Source: Saprospiraceae bacterium (GTDB taxonomy: Bacteria > Bacteroidota > Bacteroidia > Chitinophagales > Saprospiraceae). From it: a stretch of 64,000 nucleotides of DNA. The stretch is from the NCBI GenBank assembly GCA_020628645.1, contig JAHDES010000016.1, forward strand, positions 39,547 to 103,546, in the 5' to 3' direction. The notes beneath the pieces were generated by a model. It was not told the DNA's origin. It did not search any database and saw only the letters and a list, made by a program, of their open reading frames with translations. Positions 32,755-47,688 of the stretch are shown one piece after another. Both the position numbers and the translations under genes were made by a program. Numbering within the stretch: the stretch's first letter is position 1; each line of letters begins with the position of its first letter.

Positions 32755-33618
32755 TTAATGGTTATGTCCAATCCACCTCAAAAAATCAGGGAAAATCTCT
32801 CCCCAAGTTTGAGTCGTATGCGTACCATCTTCGACTTCTACATAATGAATTTGAGAAGATGGAATTCCTTTTTGTTCCAATGCTTTTATAAGATCAAGCG
32901 TATCATCAATCGCATCAATGACACCATTATTATTCCGATCATCTTCTTCATCTTTCGTACCTGTTTGCAACCAAAAACGGAGATGTTGACGGGGAGAAAT
33001 TTTATCATTTTCCACCATCGTATGTACGATTCGATCCGCATCAGGATCTTCTGCTCGAAAGGCTTTTGATCGCCACCAAAATGAACCCGAAAAAACCCCC
33101 ACTTTTCCAAAAAAATCGGGGTGTTGCCACGCCAAATCGAAAGCCGATAATCCACCTAAGGAGAAGCCCGCAATAGTATGATCTTGTGGGGTAGTAGAAA
33201 TGCTAAAATTAGTATGAATAAAGGGGAGTAATTCCTTAGTAATAAATTTAGCATAAGCAGTTGATTGTTGTCCACGATTGGCATAATCCAACTGTTTCGA
33301 TGTACCATATTCTTGTAGGCGATCACCTGCATGAATCGCAACCGCTAAAAGTGGTTTTTCTTTGTAATATTCTTTTAAATGTTGCTCCAATTGAATAGCC
33401 TCCATATCTTGTCCATCGTTTAAAATAAGTAAGGATAAACCTTCATTATTTCTTTGTAGACTCGAACTCGGATAATAGCAATCTACTTCCACTTCACGCC
33501 CTAAGTGAACAGAATGGAATACTTTTTTCAGCTTTTTTACCGAATAATCTATTTTTTTAGGCTTTTTTCTAAAAAAATTACCAAATTTTATTTTGAAAGC
33601 TTGTTTTATTTTTAGCAC
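32755..33618 (-). CDS. Esterase D-type alpha/beta hydrolase
   Basis: A 287-aa hydrolase of the putative esterase family (PF00756; enterochelin esterase Fes / antigen 85 fold). The nucleophile Ser is in the elbow AGFSLGGLSAFD; GTKDEEDD supplies the likely acid and GTHTTQTW the likely catalytic His. GTG start. The N-terminus (~25 residues) is basic and lacks a clear signal peptide. The first gene of a minus-strand pair with the VOC gene. It is divergent from the ATP-grasp operon, whose first gene is also an esterase-type hydrolase; a shared role is a guess. Confidence 0.82.
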   Translation of the reverse strand: MLKIKQAFKIKFGNFFRKKPKKIDYSVKKLKKVFHSVHLGREVEVDCYYPSSSLQRNNEGLSLLILNDGQDMEAIQLEQHLKEYYKEKPLLAVAIHAGDRLQEYGTSKQLDYANRGQQSTAYAKFITKELLPFIHTNFSISTTPQDHTIAGFSLGGLSAFDLAWQHPDFFGKVGVFSGSFWWRSKAFRAEDPDADRIVHTMVENDKISPRQHLRFWLQTGTKDEEDDRNNNGVIDAIDDTLDLIKALEQKGIPSSQIHYVEVEDGTHTTQTWGEIFPDFLRWIGHNH

Positions 33619-33742
33619 CTCTTAAAAAATAATTAATTGTTAAAGCAACTATTTTCAAAATTCTATTTTCTGAAACCTCTTTCTTTCCTTATCGTACGTA
33701 AAATAGCTGATTTGTAAAAAACTGATTATCAAATAGTTTGGC

Positions 33743-33773
33743 TTGATTTTTACAAAATTCTGCTATAATTTTG
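33743..33773 (+). promoter_or_regulatory. Promoter of the ATP-grasp operon
   Basis: A -33-type TTG (33743-33745), 20 bases, then the -7 box TAATTTTG (33766-33773) fit the Bacteroidota housekeeping promoter consensus well. The box ends 50 bases before the first start codon. Confidence 0.6.
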
Positions 33774-33823
33774 CACTCGATTTTCAACACCTATAATTTC
33801 TAATACTCAAAACAATAGCCATC

Positions 33824-34534
33824 TTGAAAGAACAATATGTAAAATGGTATTCACCAAAGTTAGGCAAAGATATGGAAATGCTTGTATTTGGTGACCGTGG
33901 TTATCCACTTGTTATTTTCCCTTCTACAATGGGACGTTATCACGAAAGTAAAGATTTTAAATTAATTGAATCTGTACGCTGGTTTGTCGAACAAGGATTG
34001 GTGCAAATTTATTGCCCCGATAGTATTGATAAATTGAGTTGGTACAATCGTTCTGTTCACCCTTCAGTAAAGGTCTACAATCATACCTGCTACGATCAAA
34101 TGGTACAGCACGAAATCGTAGAAAAAATCCGTTGGAATACAGGTGTTGGAAAAGTAGCTGTTGCTGGGGCAAGTTTTGGTGGTTTTCATGCAACAAATTT
34201 TGCTTTTCGTCACCCTGAGTTAGTGAGCCACTTATTTAACATGAGTGCTGCTTTTGATATCAAATCGTTCATGGATGGACATTATGATGAGAATGTTTAT
34301 TTCAACAATCCTGTAGATTATCTCCCTGGTTTAAATCATCCAGAATTGTACAATATGAAAATCATTTTGGGCACATCGGAATGGGATATTTGTAAAGAAC
34401 CTAACTTCAATATGTCTAACATTCTCCGTTCAAAAGGTGTTGATCATTGGCTTGATTTAAGAGGCTGGAAAAAACACGATTGGCCACTTTGGCGCGAGAT
34501 GTTCCCGCATTATGTTTCAACTATCTGGAATTAA
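33824..34534 (+). CDS. Esterase-family alpha/beta hydrolase, first gene of ATP-grasp cluster
   Basis: A 236-aa protein of the esterase family (PF00756-like). Ser117 lies in the nucleophile elbow AGASFGGFHA; the Asp in GTSEWDICKE and the His in WKKHDWPLW complete a likely triad. It has no signal peptide, so it is cytoplasmic. It starts at TTG, with no good ATG near the conserved N-terminus (KWYSPKLGKDMEMLVFG). It is followed after 70 bases by an ATP-grasp ligase. In such a cluster an esterase could release or trim an ester or amide product or act as an acyl- or aminoacyl-transferase; this is inference. Confidence 0.82.
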   Translation: MKEQYVKWYSPKLGKDMEMLVFGDRGYPLVIFPSTMGRYHESKDFKLIESVRWFVEQGLVQIYCPDSIDKLSWYNRSVHPSVKVYNHTCYDQMVQHEIVEKIRWNTGVGKVAVAGASFGGFHATNFAFRHPELVSHLFNMSAAFDIKSFMDGHYDENVYFNNPVDYLPGLNHPELYNMKIILGTSEWDICKEPNFNMSNILRSKGVDHWLDLRGWKKHDWPLWREMFPHYVSTIWN

Positions 34535-34604
34535 TACTCATAAAAACTAATTGCCAACAGGCACAGTAAACAATTATCAATAGACAATAATCAATCAAAC
34601 GGAA

Positions 34605-35621
34605 ATGAAAAAAATTGGAATCCTCTTTGGACAAGAAAATACCTTCCCTCAAGCATTTGTTAATCGTATTAATGAAAAGAATGTAAAAGGCATTCAAGCA
34701 GAATTCGTTACCGTAGACGAAGTTATGCAAGCTACACCTACTGAATATGCCGTAATCGTAGACCGTATTTCTCAGGATGTACCTTTCTATCGTGCCTATT
34801 TGAAAAATGCAGCAATGTGTGGAACGGCTGTCATCAATAATCCATTTTGGTGGAGTGCTGATGAAAAGTTTTTCAATAACTGTCTCGCAGAAAAAATAGG
34901 CGTGCCTGTTCCAAAAACAGTTTTACTACCTTCTAAAGAAATGCCTATTGACACGAATCACAATTCGTTCCGCAATCTTAAATTTCCAATGGATTGGGAA
35001 AAGATTTATAACTACTTAGGCGGATTTCCATTCTACATGAAGCCTTATGCGGGCGGTGGTTGGAAAAGCGTATACAAAGTAAATAATCCAGAAGAATTAT
35101 TTGCGGCTTACGATGAGACGGGGCATTTAGTGATGATGTTACAAGAAGAGATCGTATTTGATAGCTATTTCCGTTGTTACTGCATTGGTGGAAAAGAGGT
35201 TCGTATTATGCATTATGAGCCACGTAATCCACATCACCTACGTTACCAAGCGAATTTCGACGTACCTAAATCTTTATTAAACAAAATGGAGAAATACGTT
35301 TTGGACTTATGTAAAGGCTTAGGTTATGATTTCAATACAGTAGAATTTGCAGTACGAGATGGCATTCCTTATGCCATCGATTTCTGTAATCCTGCTCCAG
35401 ATGCAGATGTGAATTCTGTAGGTCAAGAAAACTTTGATTGGGTAGTAGAAGCATCTGCAAATTATGCCATCGAACGTGCAAAAGCACAAAAAGATGGACA
35501 AGATAATTTGACTTGGGGGACGTATATCCAAAATGCCTCCAATAAAAAGAAAACGCCAGCTCGCGCAAAAAGTACCACTAAAGCAAAAGCAACTACTCGT
35601 AAAAAAGCGGTAACGGCTTAG
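34605..35621 (+). CDS. ATP-grasp ligase with basic C-terminal tail
   Basis: A 338-aa RimK-like ATP-grasp enzyme. Visible ATP-grasp features are Lys146 in FYMKPYAGGGWKSV with the Gly-rich flap at 150-156, hinge LQEE (179-182), the Arg in YFRCYCIGGKEVR, and metal-binding Glu247 (TVEFAV) plus Asp259/Asn262 (AIDFCNPAPD). Such enzymes join a carboxylate to an amine or thiol through an acyl-phosphate. Residues 313-338 are a Lys/Ala/Thr-rich tail of the histone H1 kind, unusual for this family and possibly for nucleic-acid or polyanion contact. The substrate is unknown. Confidence 0.85.
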   Translation: MKKIGILFGQENTFPQAFVNRINEKNVKGIQAEFVTVDEVMQATPTEYAVIVDRISQDVPFYRAYLKNAAMCGTAVINNPFWWSADEKFFNNCLAEKIGVPVPKTVLLPSKEMPIDTNHNSFRNLKFPMDWEKIYNYLGGFPFYMKPYAGGGWKSVYKVNNPEELFAAYDETGHLVMMLQEEIVFDSYFRCYCIGGKEVRIMHYEPRNPHHLRYQANFDVPKSLLNKMEKYVLDLCKGLGYDFNTVEFAVRDGIPYAIDFCNPAPDADVNSVGQENFDWVVEASANYAIERAKAQKDGQDNLTWGTYIQNASNKKKTPARAKSTTKAKATTRKKAVTA

Positions 35622-35660
35622 TTTTTGTAATTGGATAAAAACTGTCTAAAAGATAATGAT

Positions 35661-35713
35661 CGGAGAAGTTTCCCAACTTCTCCGAAACATATCTAGCGAG
35701 TTTCCAAACTCGC
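35661..35713. repeat. Two adjacent hairpins in operon spacer
   Basis: The perfect stems cggagaagtt / aacttctccg (35661-35684) and gcgagttt / aaactcgc (35696-35713) share the core agttt-cc-aaact. They occupy the 166-base gap between the first ATP-grasp gene and the amidotransferase gene and may reduce or process the downstream message. Confidence 0.6.
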
Positions 35714-35787
35714 AAAATGACTTACGTTATTTTTGATCAGAATAATTTAATTTCCAATTCAACTAATAATTAAACTACACCTTCAGA

Positions 35788-36600
35788 ATGCAACAGTTAA
35801 AACTAGCGATATTAGATTTGTATGGGGGAGAGCCCAACATGGGCATGGCAGCGATTCAAGATATCGTTCGCATTTATGAAGATCAATTTGAGTGGAAGGT
35901 CTTCGATGTACGTGGAAAAGCCGAATTACCTGATTTATCTTATGATATTTTTATCTCTACAGGTGGACCAGGGAGTCCTTTAGATGGAGATGGGCATTGG
36001 GATCGCTTATATTTTGAATGGCTAGAAAAGGTTTGGAATTGGAATACAAAAGATAAAGAAACTAAAAAACATGTTTTCTTTATTTGTCATTCTTTTCAGA
36101 TGGCGTGTCATCATTTTCAAATAGGAGAAGTCAATCAACGAAAATCGCGTTCATATGGAACATTTCCTGTACATAAAACCGATACAGGAAAAAAAGAACC
36201 CTTTTTTCAAACACTCGACAATCCATTTTACGTAGCAGATTTTCGATATTGGCAAGTGGTACAGCCTGATATGGATCGGATGGAAGAGCTAGGAGCAGAA
36301 TTATTACTTTTAGAAAAATTCCGTCCACATGTACCACTGGAACGAGCGATGATGGCAGTGCGCTTTTCCAATGAGATTTTTGGGACACAGTTTCATCCAG
36401 AAGCGTATCCAAAAGGATTATTAGAAGCCTTTTCAAAAGAAGATCGAAAACAAGATATTATTACCAACCACAGTGAGGAGAAATATGTGCAGATGATGGA
36501 CGACATTCGCGATCCTCAAAAGGTGTTAAAAACATACAATACCATTTTACCGACTTTTCTAGAACACGCAATTGAATCATTAACGACTGTTTTGACGTAG
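35788..36600 (+). CDS. Class I glutamine amidotransferase-like protein
   Basis: A 270-aa protein with the GATase I fold. The oxyanion and nucleophile region is STGGPGSPLD (58-67) and FFICHSFQMACH, with Cys100 at the elbow; His203 and Glu205 in FGTQFHPEAYPKG complete the triad, so hydrolysis of an amide (glutamine or a gamma-glutamyl bond) is expected. Stand-alone GATases of this kind either feed ammonia to a partner or act as gamma-glutamyl hydrolases. Its place among three ATP-grasp-type enzymes suggests that it works on their product or supplies their nitrogen; not proven. Confidence 0.85.
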   Translation: MQQLKLAILDLYGGEPNMGMAAIQDIVRIYEDQFEWKVFDVRGKAELPDLSYDIFISTGGPGSPLDGDGHWDRLYFEWLEKVWNWNTKDKETKKHVFFICHSFQMACHHFQIGEVNQRKSRSYGTFPVHKTDTGKKEPFFQTLDNPFYVADFRYWQVVQPDMDRMEELGAELLLLEKFRPHVPLERAMMAVRFSNEIFGTQFHPEAYPKGLLEAFSKEDRKQDIITNHSEEKYVQMMDDIRDPQKVLKTYNTILPTFLEHAIESLTTVLT

Positions 36601-36651
36601 CAATTTTTAGCTGTAAAAATTAAATTTAAAACATTCAAAACCAAGCCCCTT

Positions 36652-37845
36652 ATGGTTTCCTCCGTCCGCCAACAATACAACGCAGCCTTTACACAAGAGC
36701 GTTACCAAGCTTTTCTTAAAAGTATTACACAAGCGTACAACTATACCCCTCCTTTCCGTATCGCAGAAACTCCTGTTTTTATTAACAAACAACTGAAAGG
36801 ACGATTATTTGATGCTTGTGAAGAAATCATGGACACGATCTGCCGTCCAGATTTTAAAGATATTTCTAAAGGTGCTATTTTACCCGATCAAATTGTTCCA
36901 AACGAAGATGAACATACCGTTTTCCTTCAGATGGATTTTGGTATTTGTAAAGATGAAAAAGGTGATTTGATTCCTCAATTAATCGAGGTACAAGGATTTC
37001 CTTCATTGTATTTTTTCCAAGATTTATTAGCAACAAGCTATTATAAGCATTTTGATATTCCTTCCAACTATTCTCATCTATTTGGAGGCTTAGATTCCAA
37101 TGGCTATATCCAATCTTTACGAGATGTGATTGTAGGAGACAGCGTGGCAGAAAATGTTATTTTACTGGAAGTAGAGCCTGAAAAACAAGCCACTCGAATT
37201 GATTTCATAGGTGCTGAACATACCATTGGTGTTAAAACTAAATGCGTTTCTGAACTTAAAAAAGAAGGAAAAGACGTTTATTATATCAATGAAAATGGAA
37301 AAAAAGTTGGCGTAGAAAAAATCGTGAATCGCGTTATTTTTGATGAACTCATCAAGCGCGATGATTTAAAACGTGATTTCTTTTTTACGCAAGAAGCAGA
37401 TGTGAAATGGATTGGTCATCCGCATTGGTTTTTCCGTATTAGTAAACATACTTTACCACATTTAAAGAGTCAGTACAATCCCGTTTCTTACTTTTTAAAT
37501 GAGTTGGATCGTATTCCAGATGATTTAGAGAATTATGTGTTAAAACCATTGTATTCTTTTGCTGGAACAGGTGTAATTATTAATCTCAATCGTTACGATA
37601 TTGAGAGTATCAAAGATCCAGAAAATTATATTTTACAAAAGAAAGTATCTTATGCACCAGTTGTAGAAACCCCTAACCAGCCCGCAAAGTGTGAGATTAG
37701 AATGTTGATGCTTTGGAAAGAAGGTGAAGCACGCCCCGTTATTGTAAATAATCTAGCACGCTTGAGTAAAGGTGAAATGATTGGCGTTCGATATAATAAA
37801 AATAAAGACTGGGTCGGCGCAAGTGTCGGACTCTTTGAAAACTAA
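36652..37845 (+). CDS. Probable circularly permuted ATP-grasp enzyme
   Basis: A 397-aa protein. The C-terminal half has an ATP-grasp-like phosphate and lysine region, NYVLKPLYSFAGTGVII (Lys298, Gly305, Gly307), and a later ILQKKVSYAP hinge and CEIRMLML (Glu348, Arg350). The metal-binding type motif LIEVQGFPSLYFFQ (Glu112, Gln114) comes before, not after, these, which fits a circularly permuted ATP-grasp as in glutathionylspermidine synthase. Family assignment is by pattern and is less sure than for its neighbours. It lies 51 bases after the amidotransferase gene in the same transcription unit. Confidence 0.7.
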   Translation: MVSSVRQQYNAAFTQERYQAFLKSITQAYNYTPPFRIAETPVFINKQLKGRLFDACEEIMDTICRPDFKDISKGAILPDQIVPNEDEHTVFLQMDFGICKDEKGDLIPQLIEVQGFPSLYFFQDLLATSYYKHFDIPSNYSHLFGGLDSNGYIQSLRDVIVGDSVAENVILLEVEPEKQATRIDFIGAEHTIGVKTKCVSELKKEGKDVYYINENGKKVGVEKIVNRVIFDELIKRDDLKRDFFFTQEADVKWIGHPHWFFRISKHTLPHLKSQYNPVSYFLNELDRIPDDLENYVLKPLYSFAGTGVIINLNRYDIESIKDPENYILQKKVSYAPVVETPNQPAKCEIRMLMLWKEGEARPVIVNNLARLSKGEMIGVRYNKNKDWVGASVGLFEN

Positions 37846-37873
37846 AATTACTTTACGGTGGTACGGCTTTATC

Positions 37874-37916
37874 GGTAAACGGCACTTTTTTACGGAAAGA
37901 TCGCCTACCGTTTACC
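37874..37916. repeat. Hairpin in operon spacer
   Basis: The stem ggtaaacgg / ccgtttacc spans 37874-37916 with a 25-base loop, in the 108-base gap before the last ATP-grasp gene. It could be a processing site or a REP-like remnant. Confidence 0.5.
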
Positions 37917-37953
37917 AAATAACCGTCTACCCAAAAACATATAATAAAAAACC

Positions 37954-39165
37954 ATGTCTCAACCAACCACTTTTCTTTGTCTAACCTGCGATTTTAAAGG
38001 AGAATCATTTTTACGTGCGCTTCATGCAGCAGGAAATCGTATTTATCTCGTTACTTCTACGGAACATCAACAAGATGCTTGGCCATTTGAGGTCTTGGAA
38101 GATGTATTTTATTTGGATAAAAATGCCAATGGGCATTGGAATGCAGATCATTTGATTGGAGGTGTTGCACACATGATGCGTGGAATCAAGATTGATCGCG
38201 TAGTTGCCTTAGATGATTTTGATGTGGAAAAAGCAGCCTTGGTACGTGAGACTTTCCGTATCCCTGGCATGGGGCAAACAACGGTTCGTCATTTCCGTGA
38301 TAAATTAGCGATGCGGATGAAAGCAGCAGAAGCAGGTATTCCTGTTCCCGCTTTTTGTGGCTTATTTAATGATGAAACCATCAATGAATTTGCAGATACG
38401 GTTGCGGCCCCTTGGATTGTCAAACCTCGCTCAGAAGCTTCTGCTACAGGATTAAAAAAAGTACATTCTAAAGAAGAATTATGGCAAGTGATTCATAGTT
38501 TAGGTGATCATCGACATGAGTATTTAGTGGAGCAATTTAAACCAGGTGCGGTTTATCATGCCGATGCACTTACGGTAGATGGCAAAGTGAAATTTTGTCG
38601 TGTTTCTAAATATATGAATACGCCTTTTGAAGTAGCGCATGGTGGAGGCATTTTCCGAACGCATACGATTGATTTCAATGCGAAAGAAACTAAAGCCCTC
38701 GAAAAAATGAATGCCCAAATTATGAAGGCATTTGGCTTACAATTTAGTGCAACGCATACCGAATTTATCCAAGCAGAAGAAGATGGGCAGTTTTATTTCT
38801 TAGAAACGGCATCACGAGTAGGAGGGGCGCATATTGCCGAAATGGTAGAGGCTGCTTCGGGCATTTCACTTTGGGAAGAATGGGCAAAAATTGAATCCGC
38901 TTCAGCAAATAATGAATCCTACAAACTGCCAAAAATTAAAAAAGAACATGCTGGTATTGTGGTTTCTTTAAGTCGCTTTGAGCACCCAGACACCAGTTCA
39001 TTCCAAGATCAAGAAATCGTTTGGCGAATGAATAAACAACATCATATTGGTTTAATTGTACAAAACAAAAAGACCAATCGAATTGTAGAATTGTTAGATC
39101 AATATGCGCTTCGCATTCGAGATGAATTTCATGCCAGTGCGCCTGCAAAAGAGGTGGTACATTAA
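37954..39165 (+). CDS. ATP-grasp ligase (PurT/carbamoyl-phosphate synthase-like)
   Basis: A 403-aa ATP-grasp enzyme. Residues 1-110 are a Rossmann-like preATP-grasp domain (LCLTCDFKGESFLRALHAAG). ATP contacts are Lys157 (WIVKPRSEASATGLK) and the hinge YLVEQF; metal ligands are Glu270 (THTEFI) and Glu284 in FLETASRVGG, with Arg288. The usual ExNxR motif here reads ETASR, which occurs in several ATP-grasp_4 type amino-acid ligases. The last gene of the cluster, closed by a double terminator. Together with the two other ATP-grasp-type enzymes it suggests stepwise amide or peptide bond formation. Confidence 0.85.
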   Translation: MSQPTTFLCLTCDFKGESFLRALHAAGNRIYLVTSTEHQQDAWPFEVLEDVFYLDKNANGHWNADHLIGGVAHMMRGIKIDRVVALDDFDVEKAALVRETFRIPGMGQTTVRHFRDKLAMRMKAAEAGIPVPAFCGLFNDETINEFADTVAAPWIVKPRSEASATGLKKVHSKEELWQVIHSLGDHRHEYLVEQFKPGAVYHADALTVDGKVKFCRVSKYMNTPFEVAHGGGIFRTHTIDFNAKETKALEKMNAQIMKAFGLQFSATHTEFIQAEEDGQFYFLETASRVGGAHIAEMVEAASGISLWEEWAKIESASANNESYKLPKIKKEHAGIVVSLSRFEHPDTSSFQDQEIVWRMNKQHHIGLIVQNKKTNRIVELLDQYALRIRDEFHASAPAKEVVH

Positions 39166-39221
39166 GGAGATTTGTTCAAATAGTTGAACATTCTCAATTA
39201 GCTTAAAATAAAAAATAAGAT

Positions 39222-39270
39222 TAATAGTCAGTATTTTTACAAATCGTAAGTTGCTGACTATTAGTTTTTT
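39222..39270 (+). terminator. Intrinsic terminator, first of two
   Basis: The 10-bp stem taatagtcag / ctgactatta is followed by a T-tract (39265-39270), 56 bases after the last ATP-grasp gene. Confidence 0.75.
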
Positions 39271-39275
39271 ATGAC

Positions 39276-39307
39276 TTACATGAAAGTTTTTTCATGTAAT
39301 TTTTTTT
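39276..39307 (+). terminator. Intrinsic terminator, second of two
   Basis: The perfect stem ttacatgaaa / tttcatgtaa with a 4-base loop is followed by eight T residues. It insulates the arginine operon promoter, which begins 10 bases later. Confidence 0.85.
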
Positions 39308-39438: not shown

Positions 39439-39631
39439 GGCGTAATTTCACACATATAACCTTCACCAAGGGTAGTACTACCCACTTCTATTTTCCCCAG
39501 CGGAATAGATGTCTCTATTATCAGTTTTCGATGGTATAATTTATCCTTCTAAAGATGCTAGTTTAATTTTTTTTGAAAGGAAGAATTGTACCTCAGCAAG
39601 ACTGTCTTCTTTCAATATTATTTTAAGACTA
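39430..39631 (+). promoter_or_regulatory. Leader region with alternative hairpins (candidate arginine attenuator)
   Basis: This stretch lies between the leader peptide and the first structural gene. It includes cgccc-cta-gggcg overlapping the leader stop, gggtagtactaccc (39470-39483) followed by acttctatttt, aataga-tgtc-tctatt (39504-39519), and a longer imperfect stem gaaaggaaga / tcttctttc (~39578-39614). An in-frame ATG at 39509 would extend the GNAT gene into this region, but the added residues look unlike the family. Which stem acts as terminator or antiterminator is not resolved. Confidence 0.45.
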
Positions 39632-40213
39632 ATGGATATTCAAATTCATATCGCTAATGATACCCATACACATTTTGCCAAAAGCATTTGTGAGCTGATA
39701 GAAGTATCTGCAAAAATTAGAGGAACAGGTATTGCAAAACGAGAAACAAAATATATTGAGCAAAAAATAAATACGGGTCATGCAGTTATTGCATTAGATG
39801 GAGATCAATTAGTGGGTTTCTGTTATATCGAAGTTTGGAGTCATGAAAAATATGTTGCCAATTCAGGTTTGATCGTACATCCTGATTATCGAAAATTAGG
39901 TTTGGCCCGAGCCATTAAAGCAGAAGCCTTCGCACTTGCTCGAAACAAATATCCTCAGGCGAAAGTCTTTGGTATTACGACGAGTTCAGCCGTTATGAAA
40001 ATCAATTCTGACTTGGGTTATCGACCAGTTACTTTTTCTGAACTCACCCAAGATGAAGCCTTTTGGAAAGGTTGCCAAACCTGCCCTAATTATGATATTC
40101 TAGAACGAAATCAAAGAAAAATGTGCCTTTGTACAGGCATGCTTGCTCCTTCAAAAGAAGAAGAATTGAATTATCCATTAACCAGCAAACATAATTATGA
40201 AAAATCAAAATAA
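39632..40213 (+). CDS. GNAT N-acetyltransferase (probable ArgA-type glutamate acyltransferase)
   Basis: A 193-aa GNAT-fold protein starting at the ATG at 39632, where the conserved domain begins (MDIQIHIAND); an upstream in-frame ATG at 39509 is judged to be leader sequence. Motif A/B of GNATs is visible in NSGLIVHPDYRKLGLARAIK. As the first gene of a complete arginine operon lacking argJ and a classical argA, it most likely acylates glutamate at its amino group, the entry step. Whether the acyl group is acetyl or succinyl is open. Its 3' end overlaps argG by 17 bases. Confidence 0.82.
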   Translation: MDIQIHIANDTHTHFAKSICELIEVSAKIRGTGIAKRETKYIEQKINTGHAVIALDGDQLVGFCYIEVWSHEKYVANSGLIVHPDYRKLGLARAIKAEAFALARNKYPQAKVFGITTSSAVMKINSDLGYRPVTFSELTQDEAFWKGCQTCPNYDILERNQRKMCLCTGMLAPSKEEELNYPLTSKHNYEKSK

Positions 40214-41393
40214 TTCGCTCGTACTCGCTTATAGTGGAGGGCTAGACACCTCTTACTGTATCAAATATTTAAGTCTAGAAGGTTGGAATGTTCATGCCGT
40301 TTCTATTAATACAGGTGGATTTGATAAAGAAGAAATCCATAAAATGGAACAGCAAGCCTATACCCTAGGAGCTACTTCTTTTCAATGTATTGATGCCGTC
40401 GAATCATATTATGAAAAATATATCCGCTTTTTGATTTATGGCAATGTGTTACGAAATAATACCTATCCTTTATGTGTATCGGCTGAACGAATGTTTCAAG
40501 CAGTTGAAATCGCAAAAGTGGCGCAACAATTAAATGTAAATGCAATTGCTCATGGAAGTACAGGGGCTGGGAATGACCAAGTTCGTTTTGATTTGGCATT
40601 TAATGTTTTATGTCCTGAAATAAAAATTATCACGCCTATTCGAGATCAACAACTAAGTCGACAAGAAGAAGTAGATTTTTTAAAGCATCATGGTTTTGAA
40701 TGGACGACCCAAAAAGCTAAATATTCCATCAACAAAGGCATTTGGGGAACAAGTGTAGGTGGCGCTGAAACCCTTACTTCTCATCAATATTTACCTGAAG
40801 AAGCCTGGCCCACTCCAATAGACAAAACAGAGGAAACGAAGGTTCGTCTTCATTTTTTAAAAGGAGAATTAGTGGGGGTCAACGAGCAAGTATTCGATCA
40901 TCCTTTATCGGCAATTCAATATCTACAATCCATCGCTGCGCCTTACGGTATTGGGCGAGATATTCATGTAGGAGATACCATTATTGGCATCAAAGGGCGA
41001 GTCGGATTTGAGGCGGCGGCTCCTCTAATTATTTTAAAAGCGCATCATCTTTTAGAGAAACATATTCTTGGGAAATGGCAAGCATACTGGAAAGAACAAC
41101 TCGCTAATTGGTATGGAATGATGCTTCATGAAGGACAATATCTTGATCCTGTCATGCGAAATATTGAGGGCTTCTTAGAAAATACGCAACAGCAAATTAC
41201 GGGTGAAGTATTTGTTAAACTCTATCCTCATCGCTTTGAATTGCAAGGTATCCATTCTGATTTTGATAAAATGCAACAGCAAAAAGGACAATATGGAGAA
41301 ATGAACGAGGGATGGACGGGCGAAGATGTAAAAGGTTTTACTAAAATTTTAGCGAACCATTTTTCAAGCCCTGTAAAAGAGTTAGTATCATGA
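40197..41393 (+). CDS. argG: Argininosuccinate synthase
   Basis: A 398-aa ATP-dependent ligase joining citrulline and aspartate. The PP-loop LAYSGGLDTSYCIKYL is at residues ~9-24, with downstream substrate motifs AHGSTGAGNDQVRFD and YSINKGIWGTSVGG. Normal family length. It overlaps the GNAT gene upstream and argC downstream (4 bases), so translation is coupled. The Bacteroidota arginine clusters typically have this gene second. Confidence 0.95.
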   Translation: MKNQNNSLVLAYSGGLDTSYCIKYLSLEGWNVHAVSINTGGFDKEEIHKMEQQAYTLGATSFQCIDAVESYYEKYIRFLIYGNVLRNNTYPLCVSAERMFQAVEIAKVAQQLNVNAIAHGSTGAGNDQVRFDLAFNVLCPEIKIITPIRDQQLSRQEEVDFLKHHGFEWTTQKAKYSINKGIWGTSVGGAETLTSHQYLPEEAWPTPIDKTEETKVRLHFLKGELVGVNEQVFDHPLSAIQYLQSIAAPYGIGRDIHVGDTIIGIKGRVGFEAAAPLIILKAHHLLEKHILGKWQAYWKEQLANWYGMMLHEGQYLDPVMRNIEGFLENTQQQITGEVFVKLYPHRFELQGIHSDFDKMQQQKGQYGEMNEGWTGEDVKGFTKILANHFSSPVKELVS

Positions 41394-42355
41394 TAAAAGT
41401 AGGTATCGTCGGAGGGGCGGGATATACAGCTGGTGAGTTGTTACGATTATTAATTCGTCATCCACAAATACAAATTGATTTTGTACAAAGCAATAGTCAA
41501 GCGGGTAAACAGGTGTCTTCCATACATTCAGATTTGGTTGGTGATCTTGAACAGCTTTTTGTTAAAAATATTCCTTCCGAAGTAGATGTTCTTTTTTTAT
41601 GTTCTGGACATGGGAAATCTAGGTCCTTTTTAATAGATCGTAATTTTCCAAAAACCACTAAAATCATTGATCTCAGTCGAGATTTTAGATTACTTCCACA
41701 AGCAGAAGGCTTCGTTTATGGTTTACCAGAATTAAACCGAGAACAGATTTCACAAAGTACCAAAATTGCTAATCCTGGTTGTTTTGCTACGGCGATTCAA
41801 TTGGCATTATTACCCTTGGCAAAAGAAGGTGTATTAAAGGAGGAAATCCATATTCATGCACTAACAGGAAGTACGGGAGCAGGGCAAAATCCGACACCGA
41901 CCACTCATTTTAGTTGGCGAAATAATAATGTATCCATTTATAAAGCGTTTACACACCAGCATCTCGATGAGATTCATCAAAGTTTGCATCAGCTACAAAA
42001 TAATTTTAAACAAAACATCAATTTCCTACCCATTCGTGGAAATTTCTCCAGAGGAATTTTTGCCAGTTTATACATGACAACCGATTTAAGTTTGGAAGCC
42101 ATCCAAACGTACTACACAAACTATTATGATACACACCCATTTGTCCACATTATACCTGATAACCCCCATTTAAAGCAAGTGGTCAATACCAATAAATGCA
42201 TCTTACACTTAGAACAACACGAGAATAAAATTTTAATCATCAGCACAATTGACAACCTCATCAAAGGAGCATCTGGACAAGCGATTCAAAACATGAATTT
42301 GATGTTTGGTCTTTCTGAAACAATGGGATTGCAATTGAAAGCATGTGCTTTTTAA
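41390..42355 (+). CDS. argC: N-acyl-gamma-glutamyl-phosphate reductase
   Basis: A 321-aa NADPH-dependent reductase. The N-terminal Rossmann motif GIVGGAGYTAGELLRLL and the catalytic Cys in ANPGCFATAIQLALLPLA are intact, as is HQHLDEIHQ, the conserved His region. It makes N-acylglutamate semialdehyde. The start codon overlaps the end of argG (ATGA-type 4-base overlap). Confidence 0.94.
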   Translation: MIKVGIVGGAGYTAGELLRLLIRHPQIQIDFVQSNSQAGKQVSSIHSDLVGDLEQLFVKNIPSEVDVLFLCSGHGKSRSFLIDRNFPKTTKIIDLSRDFRLLPQAEGFVYGLPELNREQISQSTKIANPGCFATAIQLALLPLAKEGVLKEEIHIHALTGSTGAGQNPTPTTHFSWRNNNVSIYKAFTHQHLDEIHQSLHQLQNNFKQNINFLPIRGNFSRGIFASLYMTTDLSLEAIQTYYTNYYDTHPFVHIIPDNPHLKQVVNTNKCILHLEQHENKILIISTIDNLIKGASGQAIQNMNLMFGLSETMGLQLKACAF

Positions 42356-42370
42356 ACCAAAAAATGTTTA

Positions 42371-43537
42371 ATGAAACCATTTGATGTATATCCCTTAATG
42401 GATGTTACGATTCAACGTAGCCTTGGTAGTTATGTCTGGGATGAAAAAGGTAAACAATATTTAGATTTTTATGGAGGGCATGCGGTCATCTCTATTGGAC
42501 ATGCGCATCCTCATTTTATAGAACGTATTCAAGACCAATTAAAGAAAACAATCTTTTATTCCAATTTTGTGCAAAATGAACTGCGAGAAGCCGTCGCTGA
42601 AAAATTAGGTCAGTTATCAGCTTATCCTTCTTATTCCTTATTCATGGTAAATTCTGGTGCAGAAGCAATGGAAAATGCACTTAAATTAGCCTCTTTTAAA
42701 AATAAGCGGACGAAGGTAATTGCTTTTGAACGATCATTTCATGGGCGAACGTCTTCTGCAGTTCATATCACCGATAATCCCAACATTTCTGCACCAATCA
42801 ATAAAGGATTTGAACGGCTTATTTTGCCTTGGAATTCCTCGGATGCTCTTGAACAAGAATTGCGAAAAGGAGATGTTTGTGCCGTAGTTGTTGAAGGTGT
42901 ACAAGGTATTGGTGGCATTCATGTACCCGATCCTGATTTTTTAAAGACTGCCGAAAATTTGTGTAAACAAGAAGGGACTATTCTTATCCTCGATGAAATT
43001 CAATCAGGTTATGGACGAACGGGAAAATTCTTTGCCCATCAATTTACGGATATAAAACCCGATCTAATCACCATTGCTAAAGGCATGGGAAATGGTTTTC
43101 CTGTAGGTGGGGTATTGATAGCTCCTGATTTTGAAGCAAAATATGGTCTGTTAGGAACTACTTTTGGTGGAACGCATTTGGCTTGTGCAGCGAGTTTGGC
43201 GGTATTAGAAGTCATTGAACAAGAACAGCTACTCAAAAATGCTCAATTACGAGGTGAACAAATGATTGAAGCCTTTCAACAATTTCCAGAAATAGAAACC
43301 ATTCGAGGTATGGGCTGTATGATTGGAATTGATTTACCTTTTCCTGTCAAAGCATTTCGAAAAGAATTGATTCAAGAATATGGTGTGTTTACAGGTTCAT
43401 CAAGTCAGGCGAATACCTTACGTATTTTACCTTCTTTAGCTGTAAGTTCGGCTGAAGTAGAGCAATTTATAGCTGCTTTTGGTGCATGTTTATCCAATTT
43501 TAAATCTAAACCCATCTATGAGACATTTTCTATCTAG
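42371..43537 (+). CDS. argD: N-acylornithine aminotransferase
   Basis: A 388-aa PLP enzyme, class III aminotransferase. VNSGAEAMENALKLA binds the cofactor phosphate, LDEIQSGYGRTG holds the PLP-ring Asp, and the Schiff-base Lys lies in TIAKGMGNGFPVGG. It converts N-acylglutamate semialdehyde to N-acylornithine with glutamate as donor. It lies 15 bases after argC, and its 3' end overlaps the argF' start by 20 bases. Confidence 0.93.
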   Translation: MKPFDVYPLMDVTIQRSLGSYVWDEKGKQYLDFYGGHAVISIGHAHPHFIERIQDQLKKTIFYSNFVQNELREAVAEKLGQLSAYPSYSLFMVNSGAEAMENALKLASFKNKRTKVIAFERSFHGRTSSAVHITDNPNISAPINKGFERLILPWNSSDALEQELRKGDVCAVVVEGVQGIGGIHVPDPDFLKTAENLCKQEGTILILDEIQSGYGRTGKFFAHQFTDIKPDLITIAKGMGNGFPVGGVLIAPDFEAKYGLLGTTFGGTHLACAASLAVLEVIEQEQLLKNAQLRGEQMIEAFQQFPEIETIRGMGCMIGIDLPFPVKAFRKELIQEYGVFTGSSSQANTLRILPSLAVSSAEVEQFIAAFGACLSNFKSKPIYETFSI

Positions 43538-44459
43538 TGACGCTATTACTGATTTATCTACGATCTTAAATAATATTAAAAACATAAAAGAAAATCCATT
43601 TGGAAATTCATCTTTAGGGAAAAATAAGACAATGGTTTTGCTATTCTTCAATCCAAGTTTACGGACAAGATTGAGTACTCAAAAAGCGGCTTTAAATCTG
43701 GGAATGCATGTCATACCTATGAATGTTGCACAAGGATGGAAAATTGAATTTGAAGATGGTACCATCATGAATTTGGATAAAGCAGAACACATCAAAGAAG
43801 CTGCAGCAGTCATCAGTCAGTATGCAGATGTAATTGGTATTCGAACCTTTCCTAGTTTGATAAATAAAGAACAAGATTATCAAGAAATGATTTTGAGTCA
43901 ATTTGTAAAATATGCTAGCGTACCTATTGTCAATATGGAGTCGGCGACAGTTCATCCTTTACAATCTTTAACCGATCTCTTTACTATTGAAGAATACAAG
44001 AAAAAAACGCGTCCAAAAGTAGTCTTAACATGGGCACCGCACCCGCGAGCTTTGCCCCAAGCGGTTGCCAATTCCTTTACCGAATGGATACAGAAAATGG
44101 ATTATGAATTCGTCATTACACACCCGAAAGGATATGAATTAGCGCCCCATTTCACAAAAGATTGTACCATCGAATACGATCAACATAAAGCATTTGAAAA
44201 TGCCGATTTTATTTATGCGAAAAATTGGTCGAGTTATTCCGATTATGGAAAAATACTCCCGACTTCAACGAATTGGATGATTACAAAAGAAAAAATGGCA
44301 TTGACCAATGAAGCGTACTTCATGCACTGTCTCCCCGTACGCCGAAATGTAGTCGTAGAAGATGCCGTCTTAGACAGTCCTAATTCAATTGTCATTCCAC
44401 AAGCTGGAAATCGTACGCATGCTGCACAAGCTGTATTAACTCAAATTTTAAATAAATGA
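43518..44459 (+). CDS. argF': N-acylornithine carbamoyltransferase (ArgF' type)
   Basis: A 313-aa transcarbamylase acting on acylated ornithine, as in Bacteroides. The ATG at 43518 gives the family N-terminus (MRHFLSSDAITDLSTIL); an upstream in-frame ATG at 43479 lies well inside argD. The carbamoyl-phosphate motif is FFNPSLRTRLSTQKA; the C-terminal HCLPVRRNVVVEDAV matches ArgF' rather than ordinary OTCase (HCLPxxR). The residue that sets acetyl versus succinyl specificity is, by alignment from memory, Ala89 (in LDKAEHIKE): Glu in the Xanthomonas acetyl enzyme, Pro in the B. fragilis succinyl enzyme. Confidence 0.92.
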   Translation: MRHFLSSDAITDLSTILNNIKNIKENPFGNSSLGKNKTMVLLFFNPSLRTRLSTQKAALNLGMHVIPMNVAQGWKIEFEDGTIMNLDKAEHIKEAAAVISQYADVIGIRTFPSLINKEQDYQEMILSQFVKYASVPIVNMESATVHPLQSLTDLFTIEEYKKKTRPKVVLTWAPHPRALPQAVANSFTEWIQKMDYEFVITHPKGYELAPHFTKDCTIEYDQHKAFENADFIYAKNWSSYSDYGKILPTSTNWMITKEKMALTNEAYFMHCLPVRRNVVVEDAVLDSPNSIVIPQAGNRTHAAQAVLTQILNK

Positions 44460-45226
44460 AAGCATTACATATCATAAAAATAGGTGGAAAATTATTGGAT
44501 AATCCTGTTCAATTAAAAGAACTCCTTTCCACTTTTGCACAACTCAACGTACCGAAAATTCTAGTGCATGGTGGTGGAAAAAAAGCTTCTTCACTTTGCC
44601 AAAAATTAGGAATTACGCCACAAATGAAAGCGGGTCGACGCATTACAGATGAAGCGACTTTGGAGGTAGTCACGATGGTCTATGCGGGTTTGATTAATAA
44701 ACAAGTAGTGAGTCAATTGCAAGCTTTTCAATGCAATGCTGTGGGATGTACAGGTGCGGATGGGAATCTGATTCTTGCTAAAAAACGAGCTGCTGTTCCA
44801 ATAGATTATGGTTTTGCAGGAGATATTGAAAGTGTCAACACAGAACAATTAGTTCAATTTTTAGAAGGTGGTATCACACCTGTTTTTTGTGCTATTACCC
44901 ATGATGGAAATGGACAATTATTAAATACCAATGCAGATACCATTGCCACTAGTTTGGCGATTGCCCTTTCTAAACATTATGAGGTTAATTTAAAATTTTG
45001 CTTTGAAAAAGAAGGAGTTTTAGCTGATCCAACGAATGATTTGTCTGTCCTTACCAATTTATCGCAAGAAGAGTATTTCCTTGAACGAAAAAAAGGCAGT
45101 ATATCAGATGGTATGATCCCCAAATTAGACAATGCTTTTTCTGCTAAAAAAGCTAAGGTTCATAACGTTAAAATCTGTGGAAGTACAGGAATTACAACCT
45201 CAAAAGGAACAGAAATATGTCTATAA
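44456..45226 (+). CDS. argB: N-acylglutamate kinase
   Basis: A 256-aa amino-acid kinase family member. The N-terminal Lys-Gly-Gly loop (IIKIGGKLLDNP) and VHGGGKKASSL bind phosphates, and TNADTIATSLAIAL lies in the nucleotide site. It phosphorylates the acylglutamate side chain. It starts within the argF' stop (4-base overlap) and its end overlaps the deacylase gene by 10 bases. No N-terminal helix of the kind linked to arginine feedback is evident, so feedback control may lie elsewhere. Confidence 0.93.
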   Translation: MKALHIIKIGGKLLDNPVQLKELLSTFAQLNVPKILVHGGGKKASSLCQKLGITPQMKAGRRITDEATLEVVTMVYAGLINKQVVSQLQAFQCNAVGCTGADGNLILAKKRAAVPIDYGFAGDIESVNTEQLVQFLEGGITPVFCAITHDGNGQLLNTNADTIATSLAIALSKHYEVNLKFCFEKEGVLADPTNDLSVLTNLSQEEYFLERKKGSISDGMIPKLDNAFSAKKAKVHNVKICGSTGITTSKGTEICL

Positions 45227-46320
45227 AAACCGCTTTAATTTCAGATGCTATTGCATTATTGAAAAAATTGATTTCGACGCCTTCTTTTAGTCGAGAAGAA
45301 GAGCATACGGCGACCTTGATTCAAGCTTTTTTCAAGCAAAAAGGAATTCCTTTGCATCAACATCACAATAACCTTTTTGCTTTTTCAAAATTTCAAAAAG
45401 AAGGAATGCCTACCTTTTTACTTAATTCCCATCATGATACGGTAAAACCTGTAAATGGCTGGCAACGAAATCCTTTTGATCCAATAATTAAAGGCGATCA
45501 ATTATTTGGTTTAGGCAGTAATGATGCTGGAGCTTCTTTGGTCGCCTTAATGGCTGTTTTTATTCATTTTTATGAGTACAAAGCACTTCCTTTTAATCTT
45601 GTTTTTTTAGCATCAGCAGAAGAAGAAATTTCTGGTAAAAATGGCGTAGAAGCGGTATTGCCCAAACTAGGAAAAATAGATGTTGCTATCGTAGGAGAAC
45701 CGACTCAAATGCAAATGGCAATTGCAGAGAAAGGGCTATTAGTTATAGACGGTGTAGTAAAAGGGAAAGCGGGTCATGCCGCCCGAAATGAAGGCGAAAA
45801 TGCCATTTATAAAGCATTACAAGACATTCAGTTTCTACAAAATGTAGTCTTTGATAAAAGCTCTCCATTACTAGGAAAGGTAAATATTGCTATTACTCAA
45901 ATCAATGCAGGAACACAGCACAATGTCGTGCCTGATGAATGCCATTTTGTCGTGGATATTCGTACCACGGAGCAATACACCAATCAAGAAGTTTTTCAGT
46001 TTTTACAAAAAAATACGCGTTCTGAATTGAAAGCGCGATCTTTTCGATTGAATTCTTCTGGTATTCCGTTGGCGCATCCTTTGGTACAAACGGGAAAGGC
46101 GATGGGCTTGTCCACTTATGGATCGGCTACTTTATCGGATCAAGCTTTGATGTCTTTTCCAAGTTTGAAAATGGGACCAGGTAATTCGAATCGTTCGCAT
46201 ACGGCGGATGAGTATATTTATCTAAAAGAAATAAAAGAAGGGATACATATTTATCATCAACTTATTGAAAAATTGATTCCTATCTATCAAAATAAATTAG
46301 CAGTAAAAGGGATTAATTGA
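45217..46320 (+). CDS. argE: M20 family N-acyl-amino-acid deacylase (ArgE role)
   Basis: A 367-aa dinuclear zinc hydrolase. Ligands and base are visible: LNSHHDTVKP, GLGSNDAGAS, the general-base Glu in ASAEEEISG, GEPTQMQ and a late His in NRSHTADEYI. In this operon it should remove the acyl group from N-acylcitrulline (since carbamoylation precedes deacylation with ArgF') or from N-acylornithine. Sequence similarity alone would also allow an ArgE/DapE assignment; the operon decides. A family B repeat begins at its stop codon. Confidence 0.88.
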   Translation: MSIKTALISDAIALLKKLISTPSFSREEEHTATLIQAFFKQKGIPLHQHHNNLFAFSKFQKEGMPTFLLNSHHDTVKPVNGWQRNPFDPIIKGDQLFGLGSNDAGASLVALMAVFIHFYEYKALPFNLVFLASAEEEISGKNGVEAVLPKLGKIDVAIVGEPTQMQMAIAEKGLLVIDGVVKGKAGHAARNEGENAIYKALQDIQFLQNVVFDKSSPLLGKVNIAITQINAGTQHNVVPDECHFVVDIRTTEQYTNQEVFQFLQKNTRSELKARSFRLNSSGIPLAHPLVQTGKAMGLSTYGSATLSDQALMSFPSLKMGPGNSNRSHTADEYIYLKEIKEGIHIYHQLIEKLIPIYQNKLAVKGIN

Positions 46321-46353
46321 ACTAATCGTGGGACGATTTTGAATCGGCCACAC
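46320..46353 (-). repeat. Dispersed repeat family B, copy 2
   Basis: aactaatcgtgggacgat, then tttgaatcggccacac, is the reverse complement form of the elements at 5983 and 51935. It lies in the 57-base gap between the deacylase gene and argH. The central stem cgatt-ttg-aatcg is a compensated version of cgact-tgg-agtcg in copy 1. Confidence 0.55.
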
Positions 46354-46377
46354 GATAAGAAATTAAAAATTTAACAC

Positions 46378-47688
46378 ATGAAACTCTGGGAGAAACAAAC
46401 TAAAATAAATCAGTTGATCGAAGCCTTTACGATTGGCAATGATTCTGATTTTGATCTACAATTGGCGAAGTTTGATGTACAAGGGACACTTGCCCACATC
46501 AAAATGCTTCAAAAAATTGGCTTATTAACAGCATCCGAATTGTCTGCCTTAGAAATCGCTTTAGACCATATCTTACAACTCATTGAAAAGGGCGAATTTC
46601 AGATTGAAAACGGTATAGAAGATGTGCATTCACAAGTAGAATTAATGCTGACTAGAGAACTAGGTGATATAGGAAAAAAGGTGCATGCAGGACGTTCTAG
46701 AAACGATCAAGTTTTGGTGGATTTACGTTTGTTCTTTCGATCTGAAATGAAGGAAATTGCACATTTAGTACATGCTTTATTTGAGACTTTAATTGCAAAA
46801 AGTGAAGAGTATAAAAATGTCTTAATGCCAGGTTATACCCATACCCAAGTAGCTATGGTTTCTTCTTTTGGCTTATGGTTTGGTGCGTATGCGGAGTCCT
46901 TGATTGATGATTTGAGATTACTACTTTCCGTTTATCAAATTAATAATCAAAATCCGTTAGGTTCGGCTGCAGGTTATGGAAGTTCTTTTCCTTTAGATCG
47001 AAAAATGACGACTAAATTATTGGATTTTGAAGAACTCGCGTACAATTCTATTTATGCTCAAATGGGGCGTGGTAAAACGGAGCAATTTTTAAGTTTTGCA
47101 ATCGCTGGGCTTGGAGCTATATTAGGAAAAATAGCTTCAGATGTCGTACTTTTTTCCAATGAAAATTTTCGCTTTCTTCAATTACCAGATGAATTTACAA
47201 CAGGTAGTAGTATCATGCCACACAAAAAAAATCCAGATGTATTTGAATTGATACGAGGGCATTCTAATCTATTTCAATCACTTCCTACACAAGTAAGTTT
47301 GCTTAATTCGAATTTGATAAGTGGTTATCATCGTGATTATCAATTATTGAAAGAAGTACTTTTTCCAGCATTAGAACAACTCAAAAAATGCCTTCATTTA
47401 TCTATTGAATGTTTTAAAAATATAATGGTGCATCAAGAAATACTAAAGGACGATAAATACAATTATCTTTTTACGGTAGAAAAAGTAAATACTTTGGTGA
47501 TGGAAGGTGTTCCTTTTCGAACAGCTTATCAAGATGTTGGAGCAGAAGTGGAGGCTGGTACTTTTTCTTATAAAGGAGAGCTACAGCATACGCATGAAGG
47601 AAGCATTGGCAATCTTTGTTTAAAGGAAATACAATCAAAAATGCAAGTTGTTTATGCACAGTTTACAGCAAATAATGCGGTTGATTAG
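46378..47688 (+). CDS. argH: Argininosuccinate lyase
   Basis: A 436-aa fumarase/aspartase superfamily enzyme giving arginine and fumarate. VHAGRSRNDQVLVDLRLFF, YTHTQVA and the signature loop GSSIMPHKKNPDVFELIRG (catalytic Ser region) are all present. It is the last gene of the operon. Its stop overlaps the stop of the convergent cinA by 4 bases, leaving no room for an ordinary terminator. Confidence 0.95.
   Translation: MKLWEKQTKINQLIEAFTIGNDSDFDLQLAKFDVQGTLAHIKMLQKIGLLTASELSALEIALDHILQLIEKGEFQIENGIEDVHSQVELMLTRELGDIGKKVHAGRSRNDQVLVDLRLFFRSEMKEIAHLVHALFETLIAKSEEYKNVLMPGYTHTQVAMVSSFGLWFGAYAESLIDDLRLLLSVYQINNQNPLGSAAGYGSSFPLDRKMTTKLLDFEELAYNSIYAQMGRGKTEQFLSFAIAGLGAILGKIASDVVLFSNENFRFLQLPDEFTTGSSIMPHKKNPDVFELIRGHSNLFQSLPTQVSLLNSNLISGYHRDYQLLKEVLFPALEQLKKCLHLSIECFKNIMVHQEILKDDKYNYLFTVEKVNTLVMEGVPFRTAYQDVGAEVEAGTFSYKGELQHTHEGSIGNLCLKEIQSKMQVVYAQFTANNAVD

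Follow-up and report, generated by a model that had tools for sequence, protein, structure and literature searches.

A five-gene Saprospiraceae operon as a variant of a predicted peptide-ligase module found across Bacteroidota

What is made by an operon in which several predicted ATP-grasp ligases are combined with predicted hydrolases? The question is raised by a locus in a draft genome (6.18 Mb, 99.8% complete) of a Saprospiraceae bacterium. The window, i.e. the whole stretch of DNA analysed, comprises 64,000 nucleotides (GenBank assembly GCA_020628645.1, contig JAHDES010000016.1, positions 39,547 to 103,546 of the forward strand). Five plus-strand genes, here called Est, GraspA, GAT, GraspP and GraspB in this order, span positions 33824-39165 and are separated by gaps of 70, 166, 51 and 108 bases (Table 1). 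All five open reading frames (ORFs) are present where the original prediction had placed them, and the esterase, the amidotransferase and the 403-amino-acid protein score above Pfam cut-offs. By GraspP, the closest relatives are Saprospiraceae metagenome-assembled genomes at 80% identity. The set belongs to a predicted peptide-ligase module that recurs across the phylum in several variants, and it represents the one without the YbdK-type ligase (GCS2) carried by other families.

To survey the distribution of the genes, each protein was searched for in one common set of 118 Bacteroidota genomes, using a limit of 1e-20 (1e-10 for GAT and Est). Est was found in 46 genomes, GraspA in 44, GCS2 in 36, GraspP in 35, GAT in 29 and GraspB in 24, where the Est count is an upper bound, since those of its hits that are remote from the operon and only 30-40% identical could represent paralogs. 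Every genome with GraspP (35/35), GAT (29/29) or GraspB (24/24) is also among the 44 with GraspA, and GraspA and GCS2 occur together in 35 (Fisher p 2e-20, kinship ignored). Since raw p-values disregard kinship, the pattern within families is the stronger evidence. Six families (f2, f3, f5, f10, f14, f17; 36 genomes) include both carriers and non-carriers of GraspA, and in every one of the 36 genomes GraspA, GCS2 and GraspP are either found together or missing together; three distant hits had been dropped for this test (GraspA in G007 and G087 at 32-33% identity, GCS2 in G004 at 35%). One of these families, f14, has six genomes with all six genes and six from which GAT and all four ligase genes are missing, Est being retained in one of the latter. 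Another family (f22) carries Est, GraspA, GCS2 and GraspP in all six genomes. GraspA is found in 20 of the 30 sampled families and GraspP in 16, the carriers including Arcicella and Dyadobacter. Outside Bacteroidota, Ignavibacteria contigs are among the matches listed, and a protein search returned at least 7,999 relatives of GraspA and at least 8,000 of GraspP. Co-occurrence of the genes across Bacteroidota, which the original prediction had set as a check, is thereby borne out.

The gene set of the window is real, as the original prediction held, and recurrent, but it is not the sole form. At 53 loci where GraspA and GAT lie close together (window uncounted), the slot between them is occupied by GCS2 in 20 cases, by GCS2 and an amidohydrolase in one, by a gene called c11 in seven and by neither GCS2 nor c11 in 25; GCS2 thus fills 21/53 slots and c11 7/53. 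In the window, the slot contains two hairpins and no gene. By sequence, the GCS2 of relatives is of the YbdK type: the copy at locus L059 passes the NCBIfam carboxylate-amine ligase model NF010039 with 512.9 bits (cut-off 371). Of the 44 GraspA genomes, 35 carry GCS2 at some position, and none was detected at E 1e-20 in the genome of the window or in its two sampled family relatives (G037 and G064). A PF04107 match in the window's own genome was rejected as the operon GCS2, being a different protein (L134:3624-5540, contig C94) of about 640 amino acids with a distant GCS2 domain and, judged by eye, a C-terminal CBS pair.

On a tree of GraspP, GCS2 left the slot repeatedly, well-supported branches forcing at least five changes, and a single loss of GCS2 was rejected for that reason. 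Of the 75 rows in the tree, 10 are indeterminate as to the slot. For sampled genomes the label comes from the genome search, and for other contigs the GCS2 state was read from the slot only; five rows (L040, L043, L072, L088, L089) were labelled by hand, and GCS2 in L072 was confirmed separately.

A second version of the module lacks GraspP and occurs in seven genomes (G013, G022, G030, G034, G096, G104, G112). Its order is GraspA, c11 and GAT, followed by the esterase c10 in six loci and then by GraspB in two; GCS2 is kept elsewhere in three of the seven genomes. The c11 protein is likely a permuted ATP-grasp enzyme, its conserved motifs resembling that fold by eye; one copy matches PF14403 and PF04174 under the cut-offs and another copy matches nothing. 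Seen from this version, the common core of the module joins a RimK-like ligase to a second ligase that is permuted, or likely so, and to a hydrolase of the Est type; GAT is often part of it.

Conservation of catalytic residues was counted in alignments of proteins from 34/48 loci for GraspP, 25/32 for GraspA, 23/39 for GAT, 15/23 for Est and 10/13 for GraspB, each together with the window, and from 9/11 loci for GCS2. Neither Pfam nor NCBIfam has a family that matches the 397-amino-acid GraspP at E 0.01. Its structure model is confident (predicted local distance difference test, pLDDT, 93), and a fold search places E. coli YjfC and YgiC, homoglutathione synthetase and GspS nearest. Model and search support the permuted ATP-grasp fold that had been predicted for this protein. 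The key residues named for it, Glu112 and Lys298, are identical in 35 of 35 aligned proteins, and so is Asp95.

For GraspA, no Pfam family is found at E 0.01. Its predicted fold is that of RimK, with RimK, LysX and ArgX nearest in a search with the predicted structure. The score against the RimK family model TIGR00768 is 30.4 bits, far under the cut-off of 143.4. With a lax limit, the ATP-grasp family R2K_2 (PF18299, cut-off 26.2) gives 15.4 bits for the window and 24.7 for the best of six proteins, a weak and local match that is absent altogether from L081. Membership in R2K was rejected, as the score is under the cut-off in all proteins tried. The best 50 fold matches, which represent the nearest folds only, contain no recognisable member of the R2K clade. 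Lys146 and Lys154 are invariant in 26/26 aligned proteins. In many relatives the basic tail, noted earlier for this ligase, is short if present at all, and for that reason it is not central. At four loci (L033:7456-8922, L042:1332-2828, L044:7704-9032, L056:7613-8923), GraspA ends in an extended tail that includes a stretch of some 65 residues (KGVGPKLE...); by eye this stretch is helix-hairpin-helix-like, and the piece from L044 has no Pfam match. The distant GraspA relatives in G007 (L128) and G087 (L127), 32-33% identical and without the other operon genes, perhaps form a paralogous family.

GraspB is, by its profile matches, a relative of L-amino acid ligases (4wd3, E 3e-23; 3vot, 3.9e-12; 30vh, 3.4e-11). 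The second classical ATP-grasp ligase of the original prediction is present, but not as a fixed operon member: it is found in 24 of the 118 genomes against 35 for GraspP, and is often placed elsewhere.

The amidotransferase was described as triad-complete, and Cys100, His203 and Glu205 are indeed identical in 24 of 24 aligned proteins. GAT also passes the class I glutamine amidotransferase cut-off of PF00117. In that class the nucleophile elbow is GxCxGxQ, and GAT differs in lacking this elbow, with Ser replacing the second Gly: the window has ICHSFQ, position 101 is His in 21 proteins and Tyr in three, and Ser102 is found in all 24. GAT is missing in 13/35 GraspP genomes and 15/44 GraspA genomes and so has no constant partner synthetase, which does not fit a role as the constant glutaminase subunit of one ligase. 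Two of the genomes without GAT (G055 and G093) have an M29 metallopeptidase gene between GCS2 and GraspP, the usual position of GAT. With 13 GraspP genomes lacking GAT, and M29 in its place in two of them, the amidotransferase need not serve a ligase. The M29 gene at this position hints that GAT may be a hydrolase of the product. For Est, Ser117 and His218 are invariant in 16/16 aligned proteins, the TTG start agrees with relatives, whose proteins start at the same residue, and the PDB profile match is to the putative esterase 5vol (E 2.8e-7).

Further hydrolases beside the ligases were counted over 108 loci. Neighbourhood counts cover ORFs of at least 90 amino acids; L080 and the loci L001-L030, which are short or represent the window, were set aside. 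Where G+C content is high, longer antisense frames mask a number of true genes in the ORF calls, an effect avoided by the tblastn counts, among them those over the 108 loci and those of the slot. An M17 aminopeptidase is present in 13/108 loci, always with GraspB as the nearest core gene and in 11 cases within 200 bp. An S10 carboxypeptidase adjoins GraspP or GCS2 in 5/108 loci and an amidohydrolase adjoins GraspP or GAT in 5/108, while M29 metallopeptidases occur in 3/108 and asparaginase_2 in 2/108. One representative of each was checked by Pfam, and as some of the loci come from close relatives the counts are not all independent. Near the module, glgC was observed at ten loci (L039, L040, L041, L044, L046, L057, L061, L062, L078, L088), accompanied by glgA at eight; GraspB lies within 125 bp of glgC at four loci. 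Within 10 kb of a core gene, glgA is found in 4 of 37 genomes from three families. It scores over the cut-off in 105/118 genomes, and a glycogen link by co-occurrence was dropped because glgA is near universal, so that only the linkage remains.

The reading we favour, with a chance that we put somewhat short of even, is that the operon encodes predicted ligases and hydrolases which make and recycle a small amine-capped peptide in the style of glutathione or glutathionylspermidine. The gene set, the joint presence and absence, the conserved catalytic residues and the recurring peptidases and amidases beside the ligases support such a relay. According to PMC4431377, peptide ligases of several folds that share an operon frequently work one after the other on a single peptide-derived product. 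The order of the steps, and all substrates, are what we infer. GCS2, in relatives having it, would start the peptide as a dipeptide, and GraspB may do so in the family of the window, which is without GCS2; GraspA would extend it. By joining amino acids successively, the ligases would give a short acidic or gamma-glutamyl peptide, to which GraspP would add the last residue or a capping amine, possibly a polyamine. The product would be cut again by GAT, Est and the neighbouring peptidases, GAT acting as a thiol hydrolase and not as an ammonia-supplying subunit.

Several observations weigh against this relay. In the fold search, GraspP is nearly as close to glutathione synthetases, and glutathione synthetases of this fold add an amino acid. 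Its metal motif ends in Gln114, where Asn is presumably the rule in both known families, and the hhalign alignment with YgiC covers only 83 columns, little beyond one stretch. GCS2 is dispensable in several lines, and no analysis made here points to a substrate. The conservation of GraspA, its basic tails and its weak likeness to R2K suit protein tagging as well; on account of the R2K_2 match, tagging was weighted up and the relay weighted down. GraspA, GraspP and GAT are not assigned to families beyond fold or superfamily, owing to the RimK and R2K cut-offs, the lack of a family model for GraspP, and the elbow and partners of GAT.

In protein tagging, the main rival, GraspA would add residues to a protein or to a lysine-rich tail, its own or another, GCS2 and GraspP would add links, and GAT with the peptidases would remove the tag as RimB trims the RimK product. 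Such a function has been proposed for the R2K clade (PMC4431377). We nevertheless consider it rather unlikely here, given that the GraspA tail is inconstant, the R2K match is below the cut-off and has no recognised R2K-clade entry beside it among the best 50 fold matches, GraspB is of the L-amino-acid-ligase type, and no recurrent substrate protein is seen among the neighbouring ORFs of at least 90 amino acids; M17, M29 and asparaginase_2, moreover, are families whose substrates are small peptides or derivatives of amino acids. The combination of ligases with an amidotransferase and a peptidase would also fit an amidated di- or tripeptide osmolyte, the ligases building the peptide, GAT supplying ammonia and the aminopeptidase recycling it, and the proximity of glgC and glgA hints at a storage or compatible-solute setting. 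The model for this, the N-acetylglutaminylglutamine amide system, uses a class II amidotransferase, whereas GAT is of class I by Pfam and is missing from more than a third of the GraspP genomes. With glgA near universal, and with Arcicella and Dyadobacter, freshwater and soil genera, among the carriers, the osmolyte seems quite unlikely.

GCS2 and GraspP match, by family and fold, the two types of glutathione-synthesis enzymes, and a gamma-glutamyl thiol peptide used beside bacillithiol could be made by GCS2 acting with either GraspA or GraspP. This we hold to be improbable, as bshC is found in 117/118 genomes irrespective of the operon, leaving no thiol missing, and as the family of the window has no GCS2, no gamma-glutamyl ligase being found in the genome of the window at E 1e-20. 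A thiol had been among the products proposed originally; given the bshC count, one replacing bacillithiol is unlikely and was dropped as a candidate. A gathering of unrelated genes by chance or shared regulation, with no common pathway, would agree with four families (f20, f22, f25, f26) in which the genes are widely separated or split between contigs. It can hardly be reconciled with presence and absence as a set in all 36 genomes of the mixed families, or with the four genes carried by all six f22 genomes, and we give it very little credence.

If the peptide relay is true, a metabolite of peptide type, of which no description was found in the open-licence literature, is produced by a large environmental phylum. 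The earlier remark that no named pathway with this exact gene set was recognised agrees with that literature, and an earlier mention elsewhere is possible. In the window, GraspA and GraspP exceed no Pfam cut-off despite thousands of relatives. The all-or-none pattern means that, in six families, the metabolomes of relatives that have the set can be compared with those of relatives that do not.

The features of the locus are collected in Table 1. Est0 belongs to a cluster represented in 36 loci including the window, at varying positions, and is thus a frequent but non-constant neighbour. The single promoter proposed earlier has a plausible site, matched to a Bacteroidota-type consensus, but the number of such sites is not beyond chance: the CTTG form occurs three times in the window, a number reached by 13/100 shuffles. 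The stricter TTTG form has three sites elsewhere in the window and none at the operon, and a sigma-70-like scan of the window gave no excess (23 sites, 23.4 expected). The double terminator after the last gene holds up, both hairpins folding beyond shuffles. The hairpins at 35655-35735 are perfect, and the first is present once in the window. Downstream, past both terminators, an arginine-biosynthesis-like run was observed at 39509-47688, with a GNAT protein and argininosuccinate synthase by Pfam and, as read from the translations, argC, an aminotransferase, a carbamoyltransferase, argB, a deacetylase and argH. An anti-phage defence system was rejected, the PADLOC models giving no family at E 0.01 for the five operon proteins. 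A plasmid-borne element was also rejected, GraspA and GraspP having no match in 72,556 plasmid records.

Table 1. Positions in the window of the operon genes and of the features flanking them.
Feature	Position	Strand	Evidence
Est0, PF00756 esterase, divergent neighbour	32755..33618	-	Pfam PF00756 E 2.6e-31
Bacteroidota-type promoter-like site CTTG-N20-TAATTTTG	33742..33773	+	number of sites within chance expectation
Est, alpha/beta hydrolase, 236 amino acids, GASFGG nucleophile motif	33824..34534	+	PF00561 E 4.6e-7; PF00756 22.0 bits (cut-off 22)
GraspA, RimK-like ATP-grasp ligase, 338 amino acids	34605..35621	+	
GraspA disordered tail, Lys/Ala/Thr-rich, variable among relatives	35526..35618	+	pLDDT <50 from residue 304
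Two hairpins in the slot occupied by a YbdK/GCS2 gene in 21/53 readable loci	35660..35713	+	fold z -7.35 for 35655-35735
GAT, class I glutamine-amidotransferase-like, Cys100-His203-Glu205	35788..36600	+	PF00117 26.8 bits (cut-off 22.8); PF04204 29.3 (cut-off 27)
GraspP, permuted ATP-grasp, glutathione synthetase/glutathionylspermidine synthetase fold, 397 amino acids	36652..37845	+	
GraspB, L-amino-acid-ligase-like ATP-grasp, 403 amino acids, optional member	37954..39165	+	PF07478, PF02222, PF13535 over cut-off
Terminator-like hairpin 1	39219..39266	+	z -7.4; 0/200 shuffles fold equally well
Terminator-like hairpin 2, then T run	39276..39299	+	z -3.1; 2/200 shuffles fold equally well

Trypanothione and glutathionylspermidine synthesis is among the known systems to be compared. 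That the module is its Bacteroidota counterpart, an ancient phylum-wide relay of YbdK-, RimK- and YgiC-type ligases with exchangeable amidases making a peptide-polyamine conjugate alongside bacillithiol, is unlikely in our estimate. Glutathionylspermidine synthetase (Gss) and trypanothione synthetase carry a fused amidase domain, which the GraspP chain does not have, and the operon has separate, exchangeable hydrolases; no credible profile match of GraspP to Gss or trypanothione synthetase was obtained. The E. coli enzymes YgiC and YjfC are 11-13% identical to GraspP, and their metal motif ends in Asn and not in Gln. YgiC is annotated as a peptide-spermidine ligase in MG1655, and ygiC follows ygiB and tolC, a setting unlike that of the GraspP operon. 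Both enzymes are named peptidylpolyamine synthetases in PMC12568646; the E-64 pathway of that source is fungal and has another second enzyme, and no GAT, RimK-like or YbdK-like component is described in the part available.

GraspA shares its nearest folds with RimK, LysX and ArgX but scores well under the RimK-family cut-off, and neither a RimB nor a LysW gene is recognised in the operon set. It has a weak local match to R2K_2, and its two invariant lysines, Lys146 and Lys154, may correspond to the conserved pair in the RAGNYA domain of the R2K clade; in the available part of PMC4431377 no operon of the same make-up is described, and its main text does not contain the word 'Bacteroidetes'. A RimK-type protein in a polysaccharide locus is mentioned in PMC11036162, and we draw no connection from it to this gene set. 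YbdK-type carboxylate-amine ligases (NF010039, PF04107) are matched over their full length by the GCS2 of relatives and are missing from the window, from its genome and from two members of its family. GraspB resembles the L-amino acid ligases (4wd3 and others) by profile, and differs from them in its setting, an operon of several ligases or the vicinity of an M17 aminopeptidase gene. In PMC2588565, a GS-fold ligase family is reported beside a GAT-like thiol peptidase and glutathione-like peptide synthesis is suggested. That source names proteobacteria, its ligases belong to another family and the main text does not mention 'ATP-grasp', but, as here, a carboxylate-amine ligase adjoins a GAT-like thiol peptidase and the synthesis of a peptide is proposed.

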